NCBI GenBank assembly: GCA_903928685.1
Contig: CAIYRS010000012.1
Location: 1-57,240 of the forward strand
DNA: 57,240 bases
Direction: 5' to 3'
Source of the DNA: an uncultured Methylococcaceae bacterium
Lineage (GTDB): Bacteria > Pseudomonadota > Gammaproteobacteria > Methylococcales > Methylomonadaceae
Part shown: one piece after another, positions 3,217 through 37,016 of the stretch
Numbering within the stretch: the stretch's first letter is position 1
How the letters are laid out: every line of letters begins with the position of its first letter
The notes under the pieces: generated by a model
Told to the model about the DNA's origin: nothing
What the model saw: only the letters and a program-made list of their open reading frames with translations
The model's database searches: none
Translations under genes and position numbers: made by a program

Positions 3217-3972
3217 ATGTGTTGGAGTGGAGAAGCGTCTGGCGTTTTGGCTGTGGCGGGGTTGGGTACTGCTGCGTATGTTGCGCTGAAACAAGGGGAA
3301 TCTAAGGAATTATGGATTCCGTTAACGTATTTTGCGTTGATGGAATTGTTGCAGGCGGTCACTTATGTCTATATCGACTTATGTGATAACCCGAATAATC
3401 AGATACTGACTTTATTGGGCTATTTGCATGTCGCCTTTCAGCCGTTCTTCGTCAATATGGTGGCGATGTATTTCATTCCGGTGAGCGTAAAACTCAAAAT
3501 CCGCACGACGGTTTATACCATTTGCGGTATTGGCACCTTGTTGATGTTGATAAAAATGTACCCTTTCGATTGGGCAGGCAATTGCGTTATTGGTCAGGAA
3601 GGTTTTTGTGGCCCGCATGTTTGTTCCACCCACGGCGCTTGGCATATCGCTTGGCAAATGCCTCTTAACGGTTTGGTTTCAACACCTATTGCTTGGTTGT
3701 TTAATTTTGAATGGGGCTTGCATGCCCTGACTTATATTATCGTCGGCTTTATTATGCCGATTATTTATGGTTCTTGGCGTTTTGTGGCTTTTCACTTTTT
3801 GGTCGGGCCGTTAATTTCTGATATTACGACGGATGACCCGAACGAATACGCGGCGGTTTGGTGTTTGTTTTCCATTGCTTTATGCGTTTCGGTGATTAAA
3901 ACGCCGATCAGAAAATATCTGCATGTTAAAAAATGGCCTTTTTATAAGACGGAAATTGGCGATTCGCTGTAA
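3217..3972 (+). CDS. Uncharacterised polytopic membrane protein
   Basis: A 251-residue protein that begins MCWSGEASG and has about six or seven hydrophobic segments. The central loop between segments is unusually rich in cysteine and histidine (CVIGQEGFCGPHVCSTHGAWH), which could bind a metal or form disulfides. It may belong to an uncharacterised family such as DUF5765, but this is from memory and unverified. The ATG follows AAGAGG by 8 nt. It stands alone between the divergent proA operon and pntAB. No function can be assigned. Confidence 0.75.
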   Translation: MCWSGEASGVLAVAGLGTAAYVALKQGESKELWIPLTYFALMELLQAVTYVYIDLCDNPNNQILTLLGYLHVAFQPFFVNMVAMYFIPVSVKLKIRTTVYTICGIGTLLMLIKMYPFDWAGNCVIGQEGFCGPHVCSTHGAWHIAWQMPLNGLVSTPIAWLFNFEWGLHALTYIIVGFIMPIIYGSWRFVAFHFLVGPLISDITTDDPNEYAAVWCLFSIALCVSVIKTPIRKYLHVKKWPFYKTEIGDSL

Positions 3973-7270: not shown

Positions 7271-8662
7271 TCAGTCTTGATACGCACTTTCGCCATGTTC
7301 ACTAATATCCAAGCCTTCACGCTCAACATCTTCACTTACCCGTAAACCGATAGTCATATCGACCAGTTTATACGCCAGAAAAGACACCAAACCAGACCAG
7401 ATTACCGTGATTAACACACCCCAAACTTGGCTTTGCAGTTGCGTTACCATGCTGTATTCGCCAAAACTGTTAGTGATGTAATCGTATACGCCAGTACCGC
7501 CTAATGCAGGCGAAGCAACGATAGCCGTACCTATTGATCCTAAAATACCACTAATACCATGGACACCAAAAACGTCCAAGGAATCGTCATAACCCAATTT
7601 TGCTTTCAATTCGGTTACCGCCCAGAAGCACAAACCACCTGCACACATGCCTAAGGCGATAGCACCCATAGGGCCAGACCATCCACAAGCTGGCGTGATA
7701 GCAACCAAGCCTGCCACTGCACCGGATGCCGCACCCAACATACTAGGTGTGCCACGCATGATCCATTCAGCCGTCATCCATGCCAAAGTCGCCCCAGCAG
7801 TTGCCAACAAGGTATTGGCAAACACTAACGCTGCCGCACCATTGGCTTCCAAATTCGAGCCTGCGTTAAAACCGAACCAGCCTACCCATAATAAGGTTGC
7901 GCCCATCATGGTCATAGGAACGTTATGCGGTGCCATGGATTCTTGACCAAAACCCAAACGCTTGCCAATCATTAAACAACCAACTAAGCCGGCAACACCG
8001 GCGTTAATATGCACCACAGTACCGCCCGCAAAATCCAACGCACCTTTTTGGAAAATAAACCCAGCGGTATCGGTTGCCGCTTTGGCTGCCGCAGCATCGG
8101 TATAGGCATCAGGCCCAGTCCAATACCAAACCATGTGAGCGATGGGCAAATACGAAAAGGTGAACCAGATAAAAACAAACATCAATACCGCGCCAAATTT
8201 GATACGCTCCGCAAACGCGCCAACAATCAAAGCTGGGGTGATCGCCGCAAAAGTTAATTGGAACATGACATAAATATATTCAGGGATAACCACACCTTTA
8301 CTAAAAGTTGCCGCTACTGAATCCGGGGTTATGCCACTGAGAAACGCTTTACTGAAGCCGCCATAAAACGCATTGCCTTCGGTGAAGGCCACGCTATAAC
8401 CATACAAAGCCCATAACACAGCAATGAAACAAAAAATGATAAATACCTGCATTAACACCGACAGCATGTTTTTGGCACGTACCATACCCGCATAAAACAA
8501 TGCCAAACCTGGGATGGTCATTAAAATAACCAAAACGGTAGCAACAATCATCCAGCTGGTATCGCCTTTATTGGCAACCGGAACACTCACTACCTCCTCT
8601 GCAAAACTCCCCGTTGAATACAATAACGTTAAAAATGCAATCGACTTGATAAACTTGGTCAT
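7271..8662 (-). CDS. amtB: Ammonium transporter AmtB
   Basis: A 463-residue Amt/Mep/Rh ammonium channel. A signal peptide (about 1-21) is followed by eleven predicted membrane helices. The pore histidines are recognisable in VVHINAGVAGLVG and GVHGISGILGSIG. The C-terminal cytoplasmic tail would be the docking site of the PII protein GlnK. No glnK gene lies next to it or elsewhere in the window, unlike the usual glnK-amtB pair. The ATG has AGGGAAA upstream. A near-consensus sigma-54 promoter lies at 8750-8765 and an NtrC-type dyad further upstream, so expression should rise in nitrogen limitation. Confidence 0.96.
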   Translation of the reverse strand: MTKFIKSIAFLTLLYSTGSFAEEVVSVPVANKGDTSWMIVATVLVILMTIPGLALFYAGMVRAKNMLSVLMQVFIIFCFIAVLWALYGYSVAFTEGNAFYGGFSKAFLSGITPDSVAATFSKGVVIPEYIYVMFQLTFAAITPALIVGAFAERIKFGAVLMFVFIWFTFSYLPIAHMVWYWTGPDAYTDAAAAKAATDTAGFIFQKGALDFAGGTVVHINAGVAGLVGCLMIGKRLGFGQESMAPHNVPMTMMGATLLWVGWFGFNAGSNLEANGAAALVFANTLLATAGATLAWMTAEWIMRGTPSMLGAASGAVAGLVAITPACGWSGPMGAIALGMCAGGLCFWAVTELKAKLGYDDSLDVFGVHGISGILGSIGTAIVASPALGGTGVYDYITNSFGEYSMVTQLQSQVWGVLITVIWSGLVSFLAYKLVDMTIGLRVSEDVEREGLDISEHGESAYQD

Positions 8663-8749
8663 ATGATTTTCCCTTACTTTTTGTTAGCTGTTATTCGCAC
8701 TTCGCTTTAGCAACTCAATAGAAAGAACTTCTCTATTTGTTGAAATTTA

Positions 8750-8765
8750 AGCAATAGCCGTACCA
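8750..8765 (-). promoter_or_regulatory. Sigma-54 promoter of amtB
   Basis: Read on the minus strand the site is TGGTACGGCTATTGCT, which differs from the consensus TGGCACGNNNNTTGCW at one defined position. GG and GC are spaced by exactly 10 nt. It predicts transcription starting near 8739 and a leader of about 77 nt before the amtB ATG. Sigma-54 control of amtB under NtrC is established in enteric bacteria. Confidence 0.85.
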
Positions 8766-8846
8766 AAGTAAATCTAATTATTATTGGCATATTGGTTTGC
8801 AATCCACTGCTATTCGCACCAAGGGAAAACATTGCAGATAGCAGAC

Positions 8847-8861
8847 GCACCCGGATGGTGC
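8847..8861. promoter_or_regulatory. NtrC-type enhancer dyad
   Basis: A perfect dyad GCACC-CGGAT-GGTGC, matching the NtrC recognition pattern GCACC-N5-GGTGC. It lies about 90 bp upstream of the amtB promoter and about 105 bp upstream of the oppositely facing sigma-54 promoter at 8959, so one enhancer could serve both. A single half-site GCACC (8816-8820) lies 31 bp away, about three helical turns, and could be a weaker second site. Confidence 0.7.
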
Positions 8862-8958
8862 TTTTACTATCCATAACCCTACTACAATTGAAAAACCATT
8901 TAAGGAAAGCACGTTTATTTTCACTTGCTATTGATAACCGCCAAATTACCGATACATT

Positions 8959-8974
8959 TGGCACAATCAATGCT
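8959..8974 (+). promoter_or_regulatory. Sigma-54 promoter of the duplicated unknown gene
   Basis: TGGCACAATCAATGCT: an exact TGGCAC -24 element, GG and GC spaced by 10 nt, and a TGCT -12 element with one mismatch in the TTGCW motif. The predicted start is near 8985, about 43 nt before the ATG at 9028. It faces away from the amtB promoter. Confidence 0.75.
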
Positions 8975-9027
8975 TACTAGCTGTTAAGCAACCACCATTA
9001 TTTATCAAAAAAGAGGTCGGACCCGTT

Positions 9028-10203
9028 ATGACCCAACCAGCAGAAGGCCATTTTTTTCCTGCATTCCATTTTCTAGGCTTAATTCAAAAAGCCATCAGTG
9101 ATGGCATTACCCGTCACTGCATCCATCTTGGCTCGCCGGATGTTTATATCGTGCCATCTGAAAACGCTTATTACAGCAGCGTTGAAAATATCGAAAGCCT
9201 GCGCCCTTTATGCCTTGCCCCGCCATTTGATGTCACCGTGGAATTAGTGCCTGACTGGCACCCTAAAAACGATCATGATGTTAAAGCCGGACGGGTACTA
9301 ATCCACCGGAAAAATCCCTCCGAACAAACCGATATGCTTGCTTACCCGTTGCAAGCCTTACTTTGGTATGCAACCCTGTGTGCGTCTTCAGGGCAACTGT
9401 TACAAGGCTATCGTGCTGAATCTTTAGTGCGCTTAGCGGCTATGCCTGATTTTTCCTCGCTTTACCACCAACCGCATCATGTCGGAATTGCCGCCGCCAT
9501 GATGGAAGAAAGCAGCACATTGCCGGAACTGGCACAAAAAACCGGAGTTGCGCTCACCGAAGTGATTAACTTCCACAATGCCTGCGCGATCATCAATTTA
9601 ATAACTATCGACCAAAGCAACCTGTTTGACCCTGCCAACTATCTATTAGGCTTAATCAAGAAAGTCGAAAACGATACAAAAATGTGGCGTTGCTCACTGC
9701 TTAGCGGTCAAGGCTTTTTGATTCTTTCGCCCAGTGAAGGCAAGTTTTATAGCGAAGCCGATCCAACTACCATTGGCAAGCTTTGCTCTGTGCAATTGCA
9801 GGAATTGGAGGTGACGGAAGTTGCCACCCAAAGTGAGGAAGAAGAGATTGTGCAGATAGGTCGAGCGCGGATACGTCGGAAAAAAACCGTCACTATGCCG
9901 ACCCTGCCTGACCACCCGCTTGCTGAATTACGCTTTCGCGCTGCCTTGTATGCGTCACAAGGCCGATTATTGGTCGGTTATGATGAGAATGCGCCTGTCC
10001 ACCTTAACCAATGGCCTGACAAGAAATTGCTGATTGAATCGGCTTCTATCAAAGCCGAGCGCTATGTATTTCCGCTCGCCGCCTATATGAACAACAATAC
10101 CGCCAGCCTTAGCGATATTGCCCAAGCAACCCGTTTACCGCTTAGCCAAGTGATTGATTTTCACAATGCTTGTGCGATTACTGGCTTGTTGGCAAGTAAT
10201 TAA
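9028..10203 (+). CDS. Unknown protein with two-fold internal repeat, probably nitrogen-regulated
   Basis: A 391-residue soluble protein that I do not recognise. It consists of two copies of a domain of about 190 residues (roughly 13-190 and 204-391). Each starts with a FLGLIQK/LLGLIKK helix, has a beta-rich middle, an FxxxLYAS/YATLCASSGQLLxGY segment, and ends with a helix-turn-helix-like element finishing in EVINFHNACAI (near 178) or QVIDFHNACAI (near 375). It has no signal peptide or membrane segment. The end element looks like a small winged helix, so DNA or protein binding is possible, but this is a guess. AAGAGG precedes the ATG by 11 nt. A sigma-54 promoter and shared NtrC dyad link it to amtB. 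Confidence 0.8.
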   Translation: MTQPAEGHFFPAFHFLGLIQKAISDGITRHCIHLGSPDVYIVPSENAYYSSVENIESLRPLCLAPPFDVTVELVPDWHPKNDHDVKAGRVLIHRKNPSEQTDMLAYPLQALLWYATLCASSGQLLQGYRAESLVRLAAMPDFSSLYHQPHHVGIAAAMMEESSTLPELAQKTGVALTEVINFHNACAIINLITIDQSNLFDPANYLLGLIKKVENDTKMWRCSLLSGQGFLILSPSEGKFYSEADPTTIGKLCSVQLQELEVTEVATQSEEEEIVQIGRARIRRKKTVTMPTLPDHPLAELRFRAALYASQGRLLVGYDENAPVHLNQWPDKKLLIESASIKAERYVFPLAAYMNNNTASLSDIAQATRLPLSQVIDFHNACAITGLLASN

Positions 10204-35207: not shown

Positions 35208-35765
35208 TCACTCTGCCAACGCTAATGAAGTTTGTTGCTCACGCCATGTTCCTGGTTTATCTGGCACTATTTCCATCAATTCCACCTTGTCAGTAGTGAT
35301 ACGTATGATCTTGCCAAAATTCTTACCCATGTAATTGCCTACTTGTACCCGATGAACAGTTTTGTCAGACGCTTTTATTAAACCCCATAGCTTCTTACTT
35401 TTAATAACTGTGCCTACCATTTTTAAACCATCCAAAGGAAATGCTTCAAGTTCTTCTTTACGTCGCTGGAAATCCGGCTTCAATCCATTGCCAGATCCGT
35501 CACCATTATTTTGTAACTCTGGATGATCTAATGGCTTAAAAGGATCGCGTAAAACTTCATCTTTATAGCTAAATTGCTCTACAGGCTTTATTTCTGGGAG
35601 CTTTTCAATCGCCATTTTAGGCTTTGCTTTTATACCAAGGATATATTGGCTTAAATCAGAAAAGTCATCACTACCGCAACCAACCAACATGCTTAGCATC
35701 GTTAAGACCATTAACTGTGATTTTTTAGCCTTAGATGTTTTCATTGATAACTTTTTATCATTCAT
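35208..35765 (-). CDS. pilP: Type IV pilus lipoprotein PilP
   Basis: The inner-membrane lipoprotein that links the PilMNO platform to the PilQ secretin. The frame opens at 35858, but the ATG at 35765 has GGAG 6 nt upstream, avoids overlap with pilO and gives 185 residues. The lipobox is SMLVGC, with the acylated cysteine near residue 30. The C-terminal beta domain contains LDGLKMVGTVIKSKKLWGLIKASD and VHRVQVGNYMGKNFGKI, typical of PilP. It ends 13 bp before pilQ. Confidence 0.93.
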   Translation of the reverse strand: MNDKKLSMKTSKAKKSQLMVLTMLSMLVGCGSDDFSDLSQYILGIKAKPKMAIEKLPEIKPVEQFSYKDEVLRDPFKPLDHPELQNNGDGSGNGLKPDFQRRKEELEAFPLDGLKMVGTVIKSKKLWGLIKASDKTVHRVQVGNYMGKNFGKIIRITTDKVELMEIVPDKPGTWREQQTSLALAE

Positions 35766-35787
35766 ATTTGGCTCCATTAACCAAAAC

Positions 35788-36435
35788 TTATTTGACAGTG
35801 CCAACTTTTCTCTTTCTTTCCGAAGATTTACCAGAAGAAGTGCCATCTGAATTTTCATTATAAGTTTTTATAACCGCATTCATTAATATCAAATCTGAAC
35901 TGCCGCCAATTTTAGTTGCGCTGTAGGGTATTAGATTGATGTCATGAACGGTGACAATTCTAGGCAATGATGCTAACCCACTTATAAATAAACCTAGCTG
36001 ATCGTATTTACCTACTACTTGAAGATTAATAGGCAGTTCCGAATAAAAATCTTTATTAATGGAAATGCTTGGCTTAAATAATTTAAATTCTAGGCCGTTA
36101 CTTAAACCCATTTGTGAAATATCAACCAATAAGCTAGCCACTTCTTCTTTTGTCGGCATTTGCTGAATCATTTCATACAACTGCGCCTCAATTTGCGTCA
36201 GTTGCACTTCATAATCGTGCAAATTATTGGCTTTATTTTGTTTTCGTTCAAACTCGGCTTTTAAATCAAGTTCTTTCTTTTCAGAATCTTCCAATTCAGT
36301 TATTTGTGGCAGTGTGTCTAAATAAACCCAAGCTCCTGCTAAAACCAAACTGACAATGCCGATAAATCCAGCTTTAACAACGCCAGGCCAAGATCCAGAA
36401 GCATTAAAATCCCAATTAATATCGGAAAGGTTCAT
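35788..36435 (-). CDS. pilO: Type IV pilus inner-membrane protein PilO
   Basis: A 215-residue bitopic protein: short cytoplasmic start, one membrane helix (about 23-43), a coiled-coil region (about 45-105) and a ferredoxin-like periplasmic domain (about 110-190; LQVVGKYDQLGLFISGLASLPRIVTVHDI). It dimerises with PilN and contacts PilP. The start overlaps pilN by 4 bp. The C-terminus ends in a basic tail, SERKRKVGTVK. Confidence 0.93.
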   Translation of the reverse strand: MNLSDINWDFNASGSWPGVVKAGFIGIVSLVLAGAWVYLDTLPQITELEDSEKKELDLKAEFERKQNKANNLHDYEVQLTQIEAQLYEMIQQMPTKEEVASLLVDISQMGLSNGLEFKLFKPSISINKDFYSELPINLQVVGKYDQLGLFISGLASLPRIVTVHDINLIPYSATKIGGSSDLILMNAVIKTYNENSDGTSSGKSSERKRKVGTVK

Positions 36436-37016
36436 CGTCCACCTCCTTTTTCTGGGTCATTTCCAGCATTATTTTTTGCAGCTTGCTTAGCCTTTAAGAC
36501 AAAATCACTTAATTGCCCCTTTTCATTTTTATCAGGGGTTCTAATGACATCAAGCTTTGGGTCAGTTAACCACATGGATGCTTCAATCCCTTTCATAAAA
36601 GCAGACACTCGCGCATTAGATTCTGACTTACCTTCAAAAGTAACACCATTGCCTAATTGCATAAATTTACTTATAAAAATCCCATCAGGGGTGACCCGTG
36701 GAATCTCATCAAACAAATGCACAATTTCTGGACGGCTAGTTTGCAATTTGGTGATCAAATCAATTTTTGCCAGCAATTTGGCTTTCTTTTCTTCGATACT
36801 TTTGATGGCTACTATTTTTTCATCGAGAATCGCAATTTCTTTTTGTAACATTTCGTTTCTTGTATCTTGATAGGACTTTTCACCATCAATGTACATGTGC
36901 GTTAAACCTAATATTAAGCCTGTTACGAGAACTGCTAAAAAAATCGCATTGATAAAATCCTTTTTCTTTTTATTTCGAAGCTCTTCCCGCCAAGGAAGTA
37001 AGTTGATTTTTGCCAT
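36432..37016 (-). CDS. pilN: Type IV pilus inner-membrane protein PilN
   Basis: A 194-residue bitopic protein. The cytoplasmic N-terminus MAKINLLPWREELR carries the INLLPWR motif that binds a groove on PilM. A membrane helix (about 23-42), a coiled coil and a small periplasmic domain (FEGKSESNARVSAFMKGIEAS) follow. It overlaps pilM by one base and pilO by 4 bp, so the three are translationally coupled. Confidence 0.94.
   Translation of the reverse strand: MAKINLLPWREELRNKKKKDFINAIFLAVLVTGLILGLTHMYIDGEKSYQDTRNEMLQKEIAILDEKIVAIKSIEEKKAKLLAKIDLITKLQTSRPEIVHLFDEIPRVTPDGIFISKFMQLGNGVTFEGKSESNARVSAFMKGIEASMWLTDPKLDVIRTPDKNEKGQLSDFVLKAKQAAKNNAGNDPEKGGGR

Follow-up and report, generated by a model that had tools for sequence, protein, structure and literature searches.

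The ammonium transporter AmtB is normally read out by GlnK, and one of the closest described systems is the glnK-amtB operon under sigma-54/NtrC control. Sigma-54 promoters that flank an enhancer and point away from each other are also an arrangement of a known kind. In another signalling world, Group 3 MglA systems have been described in beta- and gamma-Proteobacteria (Wuichet and Sogaard-Andersen, PMC4316618); that paper places a protein of unknown function, with a receiver-like N-terminal part and a winged-helix region in its C-terminal part, beside the genes of Group 3 MglA and MglB, and describes Group 3 MglA as having a DAR motif and lacking the lysine of G4. In a second paper (PMC11112851), an mglB mutation ties a Group 3 mgl locus to colonisation of the gut by Snodgrassella.

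In the window, i.e. the whole stretch of 57,240 nucleotides analysed here, an extra AmtB is kept beside a protein from the world of small-GTPase partners, each gene with its own predicted sigma-54 promoter. As in the glnK-amtB operon, the amtB gene lies behind a -24/-12 promoter with NtrC-like sites upstream; unlike in that operon, this gene (amtB2) has no adjacent glnK, its product belongs to a separate AmtB clade, and a divergent gene has a -24/-12 promoter of its own. With activator sites lying between two outward-facing -24/-12 elements, the gap resembles the known divergent sigma-54 arrangement. The likeness to Group 3 MglA systems lies in a domain of the 391-aa product of the divergent gene, which is also present in the conserved protein of unknown function next to GTPase and roadblock genes, and in a GTPase with DAR and THLD motifs in genome G038. 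The differences are that the 391-aa protein has this domain doubled, with no receiver-like part and no N-terminal extension, and that the locus of the pair has no roadblock gene, has an adjacent GTPase gene in 2 of 13 genomes and is linked to amtB and sigma-54 promoters. Within the literature surveyed, the parts are ordinary (sigma-54 promoters, NtrC-type sites, AmtB) and their combination with a small-GTPase partner protein is new; the amtB2/391-aa pair was unnamed in the titles and abstract openings surveyed.

A conserved pair with an extra AmtB

The gap at 8663-9027 (365 bp) has amtB2 on one side (8662-7271, minus strand) and the 391-aa open reading frame on the other (9028-10203, plus strand), and the features of the locus are as follows:

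7271-8662, minus strand: amtB2, second ammonium transporter gene without glnK, 463 aa (Pfam Ammonium_transp, E 5.3e-115)
8750-8765, minus strand: predicted amtB2-facing -24/-12 promoter TGGTACGGCTATTGCT, 103 bp upstream of the amtB2 start codon, 17.2 bits
8815-8831, no strand assigned: second NtrC-like site with a single good half, CGCACCAAGGGAAAACA, 31 bp from the dyad
8846-8862, no strand assigned: NtrC-like dyad CGCACCCGGATGGTGCT of the form GCACC-N5-GGTGC, with the exact core GCACCCGGATGGTGC at 8847-8861
8959-8974, plus strand: predicted -24/-12 promoter TGGCACAATCAATGCT facing the 391-aa gene, 69 bp upstream of its start codon
9028-10203, plus strand: gene of the tandem-domain protein, 391 aa, with orthologues in 13 genomes (47-64% identity)
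9046-9618, plus strand: unnamed domain of ~190 aa, copy 1 (hmmsearch 5.1e-84)
9619-10200, plus strand: unnamed domain of ~190 aa, copy 2 (hmmsearch 1.5e-83; 33% identity to copy 1)

At E 0.001, the 391-aa protein had matches in 54 of the 311 genomes of the order, and 13 genomes, the window genome included, reached the level of orthologues (E 1e-89 or better), the next distinct gene coming at E 4e-22. In each of these 13 genomes a divergent amtB adjoins the orthologue. The pair, found in some methane-eating bacteria, occurs across two families of one order, and the 13 loci are not independent because they are related by descent. Eight other window genes were searched for in the flanks of 10 other loci (6.9-18 kb; G231 and G039 were left out of this search), and none was found near the pair. 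General synteny was thus ruled out as the cause of the pair for these 10 loci, and the two genes, as judged from gene order, stayed together while their surroundings changed. The labels proA, pntA, pntB, rapA, ABC and ppx in the window were read from translations alone. A gene at 3217-3972 of the window encodes a DUF5765 family protein (Pfam 2.6e-38), which the pair does not keep elsewhere.

AmtB was present in 285 of 311 genomes, and the window genome has three Amt matches. A glnK (PII) gene precedes another of its Amt copies (G000:C104), and none of its three PII genes is on the contig of the window (C12). The 13 linked AmtBs were compared in a tree with 21 others, hand-picked among the top-listed matches and the second AmtB copies of those same genomes, and formed one clade in the sense of one side of a branch (support 100/99). 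A preliminary description of this DNA had spoken simply of amtB, which is right as regards an ammonium transporter gene with a -24/-12 promoter; the gene is not the usual glnK-linked copy but, by phylogeny and gene order, an extra copy without glnK and in its own clade.

Promoters and NtrC-like sites

Outward -24/-12 sites of the sigma-54 type had been proposed on both strands of the gap, and both were recovered in our analysis. The scoring matrix was built from the consensus. The loose -24/-12 pattern is frequent in the window (36 matches with at most one mismatch vs 28.9 expected), so that the promoter calls are weak if taken alone. In dinucleotide shuffles of the gap, the score of the real plus-strand site was equalled in 1 of 500 at 55-100 bp upstream of the start codon, and the real minus-strand score was reached in 0 of 500 at 60-260 bp upstream of amtB. 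Moreover, the genome contains 20 matches to a sigma-54-like pattern, TGGYAYNNTNNNTGCT, compared with 6 for its reversed control, and these 20 include both the rightward promoter and the glnK promoter of contig C104.

Absence of the neighbour or of the plus-strand promoter next to orthologues had been named beforehand as evidence that would speak against the preliminary description. Conservation across genomes is a stronger test than the shuffles, and its outcome was favourable. The neighbour, as given above, was kept at 13 of 13 loci, and a plus-strand site scoring 9 bits or more was found 64-93 bp upstream of the start codon in 12 of the 13 gaps, with 0.24 expected from dinucleotide shuffles; at 13 bits or more the count was 9 of 13, with 0.02 expected. 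The plus promoter of L006 is poor (8.3 bits), and those of L005, L007 and L013 are weak (9.3-9.4 bits, reached in 1.6-2.2% of shuffles). Because L011 and L012 are close relatives, as are L005 and L013, the number of independent gaps is nearer 11. Minus-strand sites of at least 9 bits were present in all 13 gaps, 73-367 bp upstream of amtB, the site of L003, at 367 bp, lying outside the shuffle-tested range of 60-260 bp. The plus promoter of the window falls in a word of 19-21 nt (8956-8976) which its gap has in common with L002, L003, L008 and L009; elsewhere in these gaps words identical to the window are at most 9 nt long, and none of more than 10 nt is common to the window gap and the other 8 gaps. 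A similar leader (AGT-CAG-TGAGCC; about AGTCAGTGAGCC) occupies the last ~18 nt upstream of the start codon in L005, L007, L008, L010 and L013, and may reflect mere relatedness, since these five group in the AmtB tree.

As controls, we used 29 amtB loci that lack the partner gene: 20 were taken from high-ranking matches, and the other 9 are second copies in genomes that carry the pair. In 28 of the 29, glnK was upstream. Within at most 500 nt upstream of the first gene, forward sites of at least 9 bits were found in 18/29 (own genome included) and divergent sites in 2/29, and at 13 bits or more these counts became 17/29 and 0/29. By this scoring, most, not all, glnK-amtB operons here have the -24/-12 promoter type. 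In 9 of 10 genomes of genus g11 (L057-L060, L063, L068, L069, L071, L072), no -24/-12 site at 10 bits was found within 500 nt upstream of glnK-amtB, and the nitrogen control of the main amtB in this genus may differ.

Between the two promoters, the preliminary description had seen a single perfect dyad, GCACC-N5-GGTGC, about 90-105 bp from each; the distances from the dyad centre (8854) to the outer ends of the -24 elements are 89 and 105 bp. This near-symmetric picture holds for the short gap of the window and does not extend across the orthologues, in which the sites are degenerate and tandem and lie 105-389 bp from the plus promoter. Among the 13 gaps, the exact dyad is confined to that of the window, and it occurs once in all 3,380,995 bases of the window genome, as does a reversed-pattern control, and in the gaps of L008, L009 and L010 no site within 2 mismatches of GCACC-N5-GGTGC was found. 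The half-site at 8815-8831, which lies on the amtB side of the dyad at a centre-to-centre distance of 31 bp, was absent from the preliminary description. GCACCA stands close to the half-site position in 9/13 gaps, and tandem NtrC-like sites spaced 31-32 bp apart were found in 11/13 (L011 and L012 are the exceptions, and for L003 and L009 the tandem partner was taken from the half-site listing). The best NtrC-like 17-mer lies 82-94 bp from the -24 element of amtB in 8/13 gaps, i.e. the tandem is in phase with the amtB promoter, and no phasing to the rightward promoter is seen. Because the sites are degenerate and tandem, and hold their distance only from the amtB promoter, they would be first of all an amtB enhancer; this is their predicted role by position, and it is plausible that the rightward promoter shares them.

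Activators of sigma-54 work by looping, and service to the rightward promoter would need looping. Both ntrC (732 bits) and rpoN (482 bits) were found in the window genome above family cut-offs, together with ten further NtrC-profile matches covering the central region of the profile, and because of these ten another activator could serve the rightward promoter. No second activator motif was found upstream of the rightward promoter in 11 loci, the best 7-mer being present in 3/11, the same as in shuffles, in what is a weak test. On contig C3 of the window genome (G000:C3), a -24/-12-like site at 35379-35394 lies ~190 bp upstream of a match to a receiver-less NtrC-type activator (35567-36502, profile positions 131-460).

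The tandem-domain protein and its GTPase-linked relatives

The 391-aa protein had been left unplaced in the preliminary description, and no family of Pfam or NCBIfam reaches its cut-off for it. This can now be amended: the protein consists of two copies of one domain, 33% identical and each of ~190 aa, and the same unnamed domain is present in partner proteins of MglA-type GTPases. With a domain profile built from the 391-aa orthologues themselves, the domain was single in 17 of 17 further proteins (with split matches in L022 and L023, and one additional chance-level match in L028). Of the 17 loci, 12 had a small GTPase, as a fusion in 3 cases and as a separate gene in 9; it was missing from L016, L020, L022, L024 and L026, where some of the sequences are short or cut off by the end of a contig. 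Thirty-four loci that encode single-domain relatives, each covering 2-7.5 kb, contained no amtB.

Next to the 391-aa orthologues themselves, the amtB-linked orthologue is overlapped at its end by a GTPase gene in two genomes, G038 and G039, and no GTPase gene was found in the searched flanks of the other 11 of 13, the L001 flank of the window included. The GTPase of G038 shows the DAR motif, and THLD in which the usual lysine is absent. In the window genome, contig C108 carries a Group 3-like cluster composed of a 410-aa protein with the C-terminal half of the domain, a GTPase and the sole roadblock gene of the genome. Among further loci of the C108 type, domain protein and GTPase stand side by side in 4/7 (L123, L124, L125, L128), and only the domain protein (L126, L127) or only the GTPase (L129) passed the ORF filter in the others. 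No roadblock gene was found on C12 or in L143. From the domain family, we infer that the 391-aa protein is itself linked to a GTPase. Contig C56 of the window genome (L091:5236-6831) also encodes a 532-aa protein in which the unnamed domain is fused to a small GTPase.

In a sample of the class, 48 of 369 genomes, own genome included, match the domain profile at E 1e-6, and no other match spanning both domains at the orthologue level was found in these 369 genomes. Other tandem-domain proteins of this sample, L141 and L142, have no amtB, GTPase or roadblock matches in the stretches examined.

Comparison by sequence gave no solved relatives, and matches to the SPRY domain (E 0.08-1.3) were dismissed as chance. 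AlphaFold2 models had pLDDT 83.6 and pTM 0.50 for the whole protein, and pLDDT 90.2 and pTM 0.84 for the single domain (40 sequences). Foldseek found nothing at E 0.001 with either of them. The weak top matches of the single domain were SEA/GATOR1 chains (E 0.08-0.3) and FAM91A1, followed by the winged helix of RPC39 of RNA polymerase III (E 0.2). The SEA/GATOR1 matches have ~70-115 aligned columns and low TM-scores, and, with the eukaryotic subunits of NPRL2/NPRL3 type (regulators of Rag GTPases) at a non-significant top of the structural list and no match by sequence, the modelled likeness serves as a lead only.

A proposed nitrogen-limitation module and its alternatives

The sequence itself shows the two promoters, tandem NtrC-like sites, a conserved gene pair, a duplicated domain and a domain family linked to GTPases. 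We consider it probable that this two-way sigma-54/NtrC region is a nitrogen-limitation module which joins a spare AmtB to GTPase signalling. Co-regulation of amtB2 and the 391-aa gene is likely. Under nitrogen limitation, phosphorylated NtrC would occupy the tandem sites at 8815-8862, and would drive transcription of amtB2 to the left and, through a loop to the second promoter, that of the tandem-domain gene to the right; we infer such action on both promoters. The 391-aa protein would be related to the partner protein of Group 3 MglA-type GTPases, with its domain duplicated and the receiver absent. Produced alongside the extra AmtB, the protein would most likely bind an MglA-type GTPase, encoded downstream in two genomes and elsewhere in the window genome, and would hand nitrogen status to the GTPase pathway as its physiological output. 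If true, the locus makes it possible to test directly for a connection between nitrogen status and MglA-type GTPases, and provides a physiological handle on a domain without a Pfam or NCBIfam match here. A bolder version is put forward tentatively: the glnK-less AmtB2 would be paired with the tandem-domain protein as a regulator of an MglA-type small GTPase, in a nitrogen-controlled small-GTPase pathway that may have AmtB2 as its sensor and would be a loose parallel to the way in which Rag GTPases and GATOR1 sense nutrients.

Alternatively, both promoters could be sigma-54-dependent with the rightward one served by another enhancer-binding protein, the NtrC sites acting on amtB2 only and the pairing reflecting a shared function. 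That the tandem sites are phased with respect to the amtB promoter alone would suit this arrangement, and the ten additional NtrC-profile matches over the central region supply candidates, whereas no other word or dyad stands out upstream of the rightward promoter in 11 loci (a weak test, as said) and an ammonium transporter is the next gene in 13/13; we judge it unlikely. We give still lower credence to the 391-aa protein being a DNA-binding regulator, with two winged-helix parts, of its own or the amtB2 promoter and with no GTPase involved. Its single-domain relatives are GTPase-linked, no significant match to any DNA-binding family was obtained, and similar winged folds make protein contacts, the best weak structural matches being those to SEA/GATOR1 and FAM91A1; what speaks for DNA binding is the predicted helical part at the end of each repeat, a weak HTH_IclR match below cut-off (E 0.09) and the RPC39 winged-helix structure mentioned above.

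Finally, it is hardly credible that the promoters and the dyad resemble real ones by chance and that the pair persists by mere neighbourhood inertia in related genomes: loose -24/-12 matches are common and the loci are related by descent, but shuffles and conservation in other genomes rule out chance for the promoters (12 plus-strand sites seen vs 0.24 expected), a long identical promoter word persists in gaps otherwise unlike, and the flanking genes are not kept.

Among the loci clustered, a response-regulator gene stands directly behind the 391-aa orthologue in two (L087:10455-15712 and L122:299-1282) and is absent from the others; in L087, genes for a further response regulator, CheW and a CheA-like kinase come next, as identified with Pfam.
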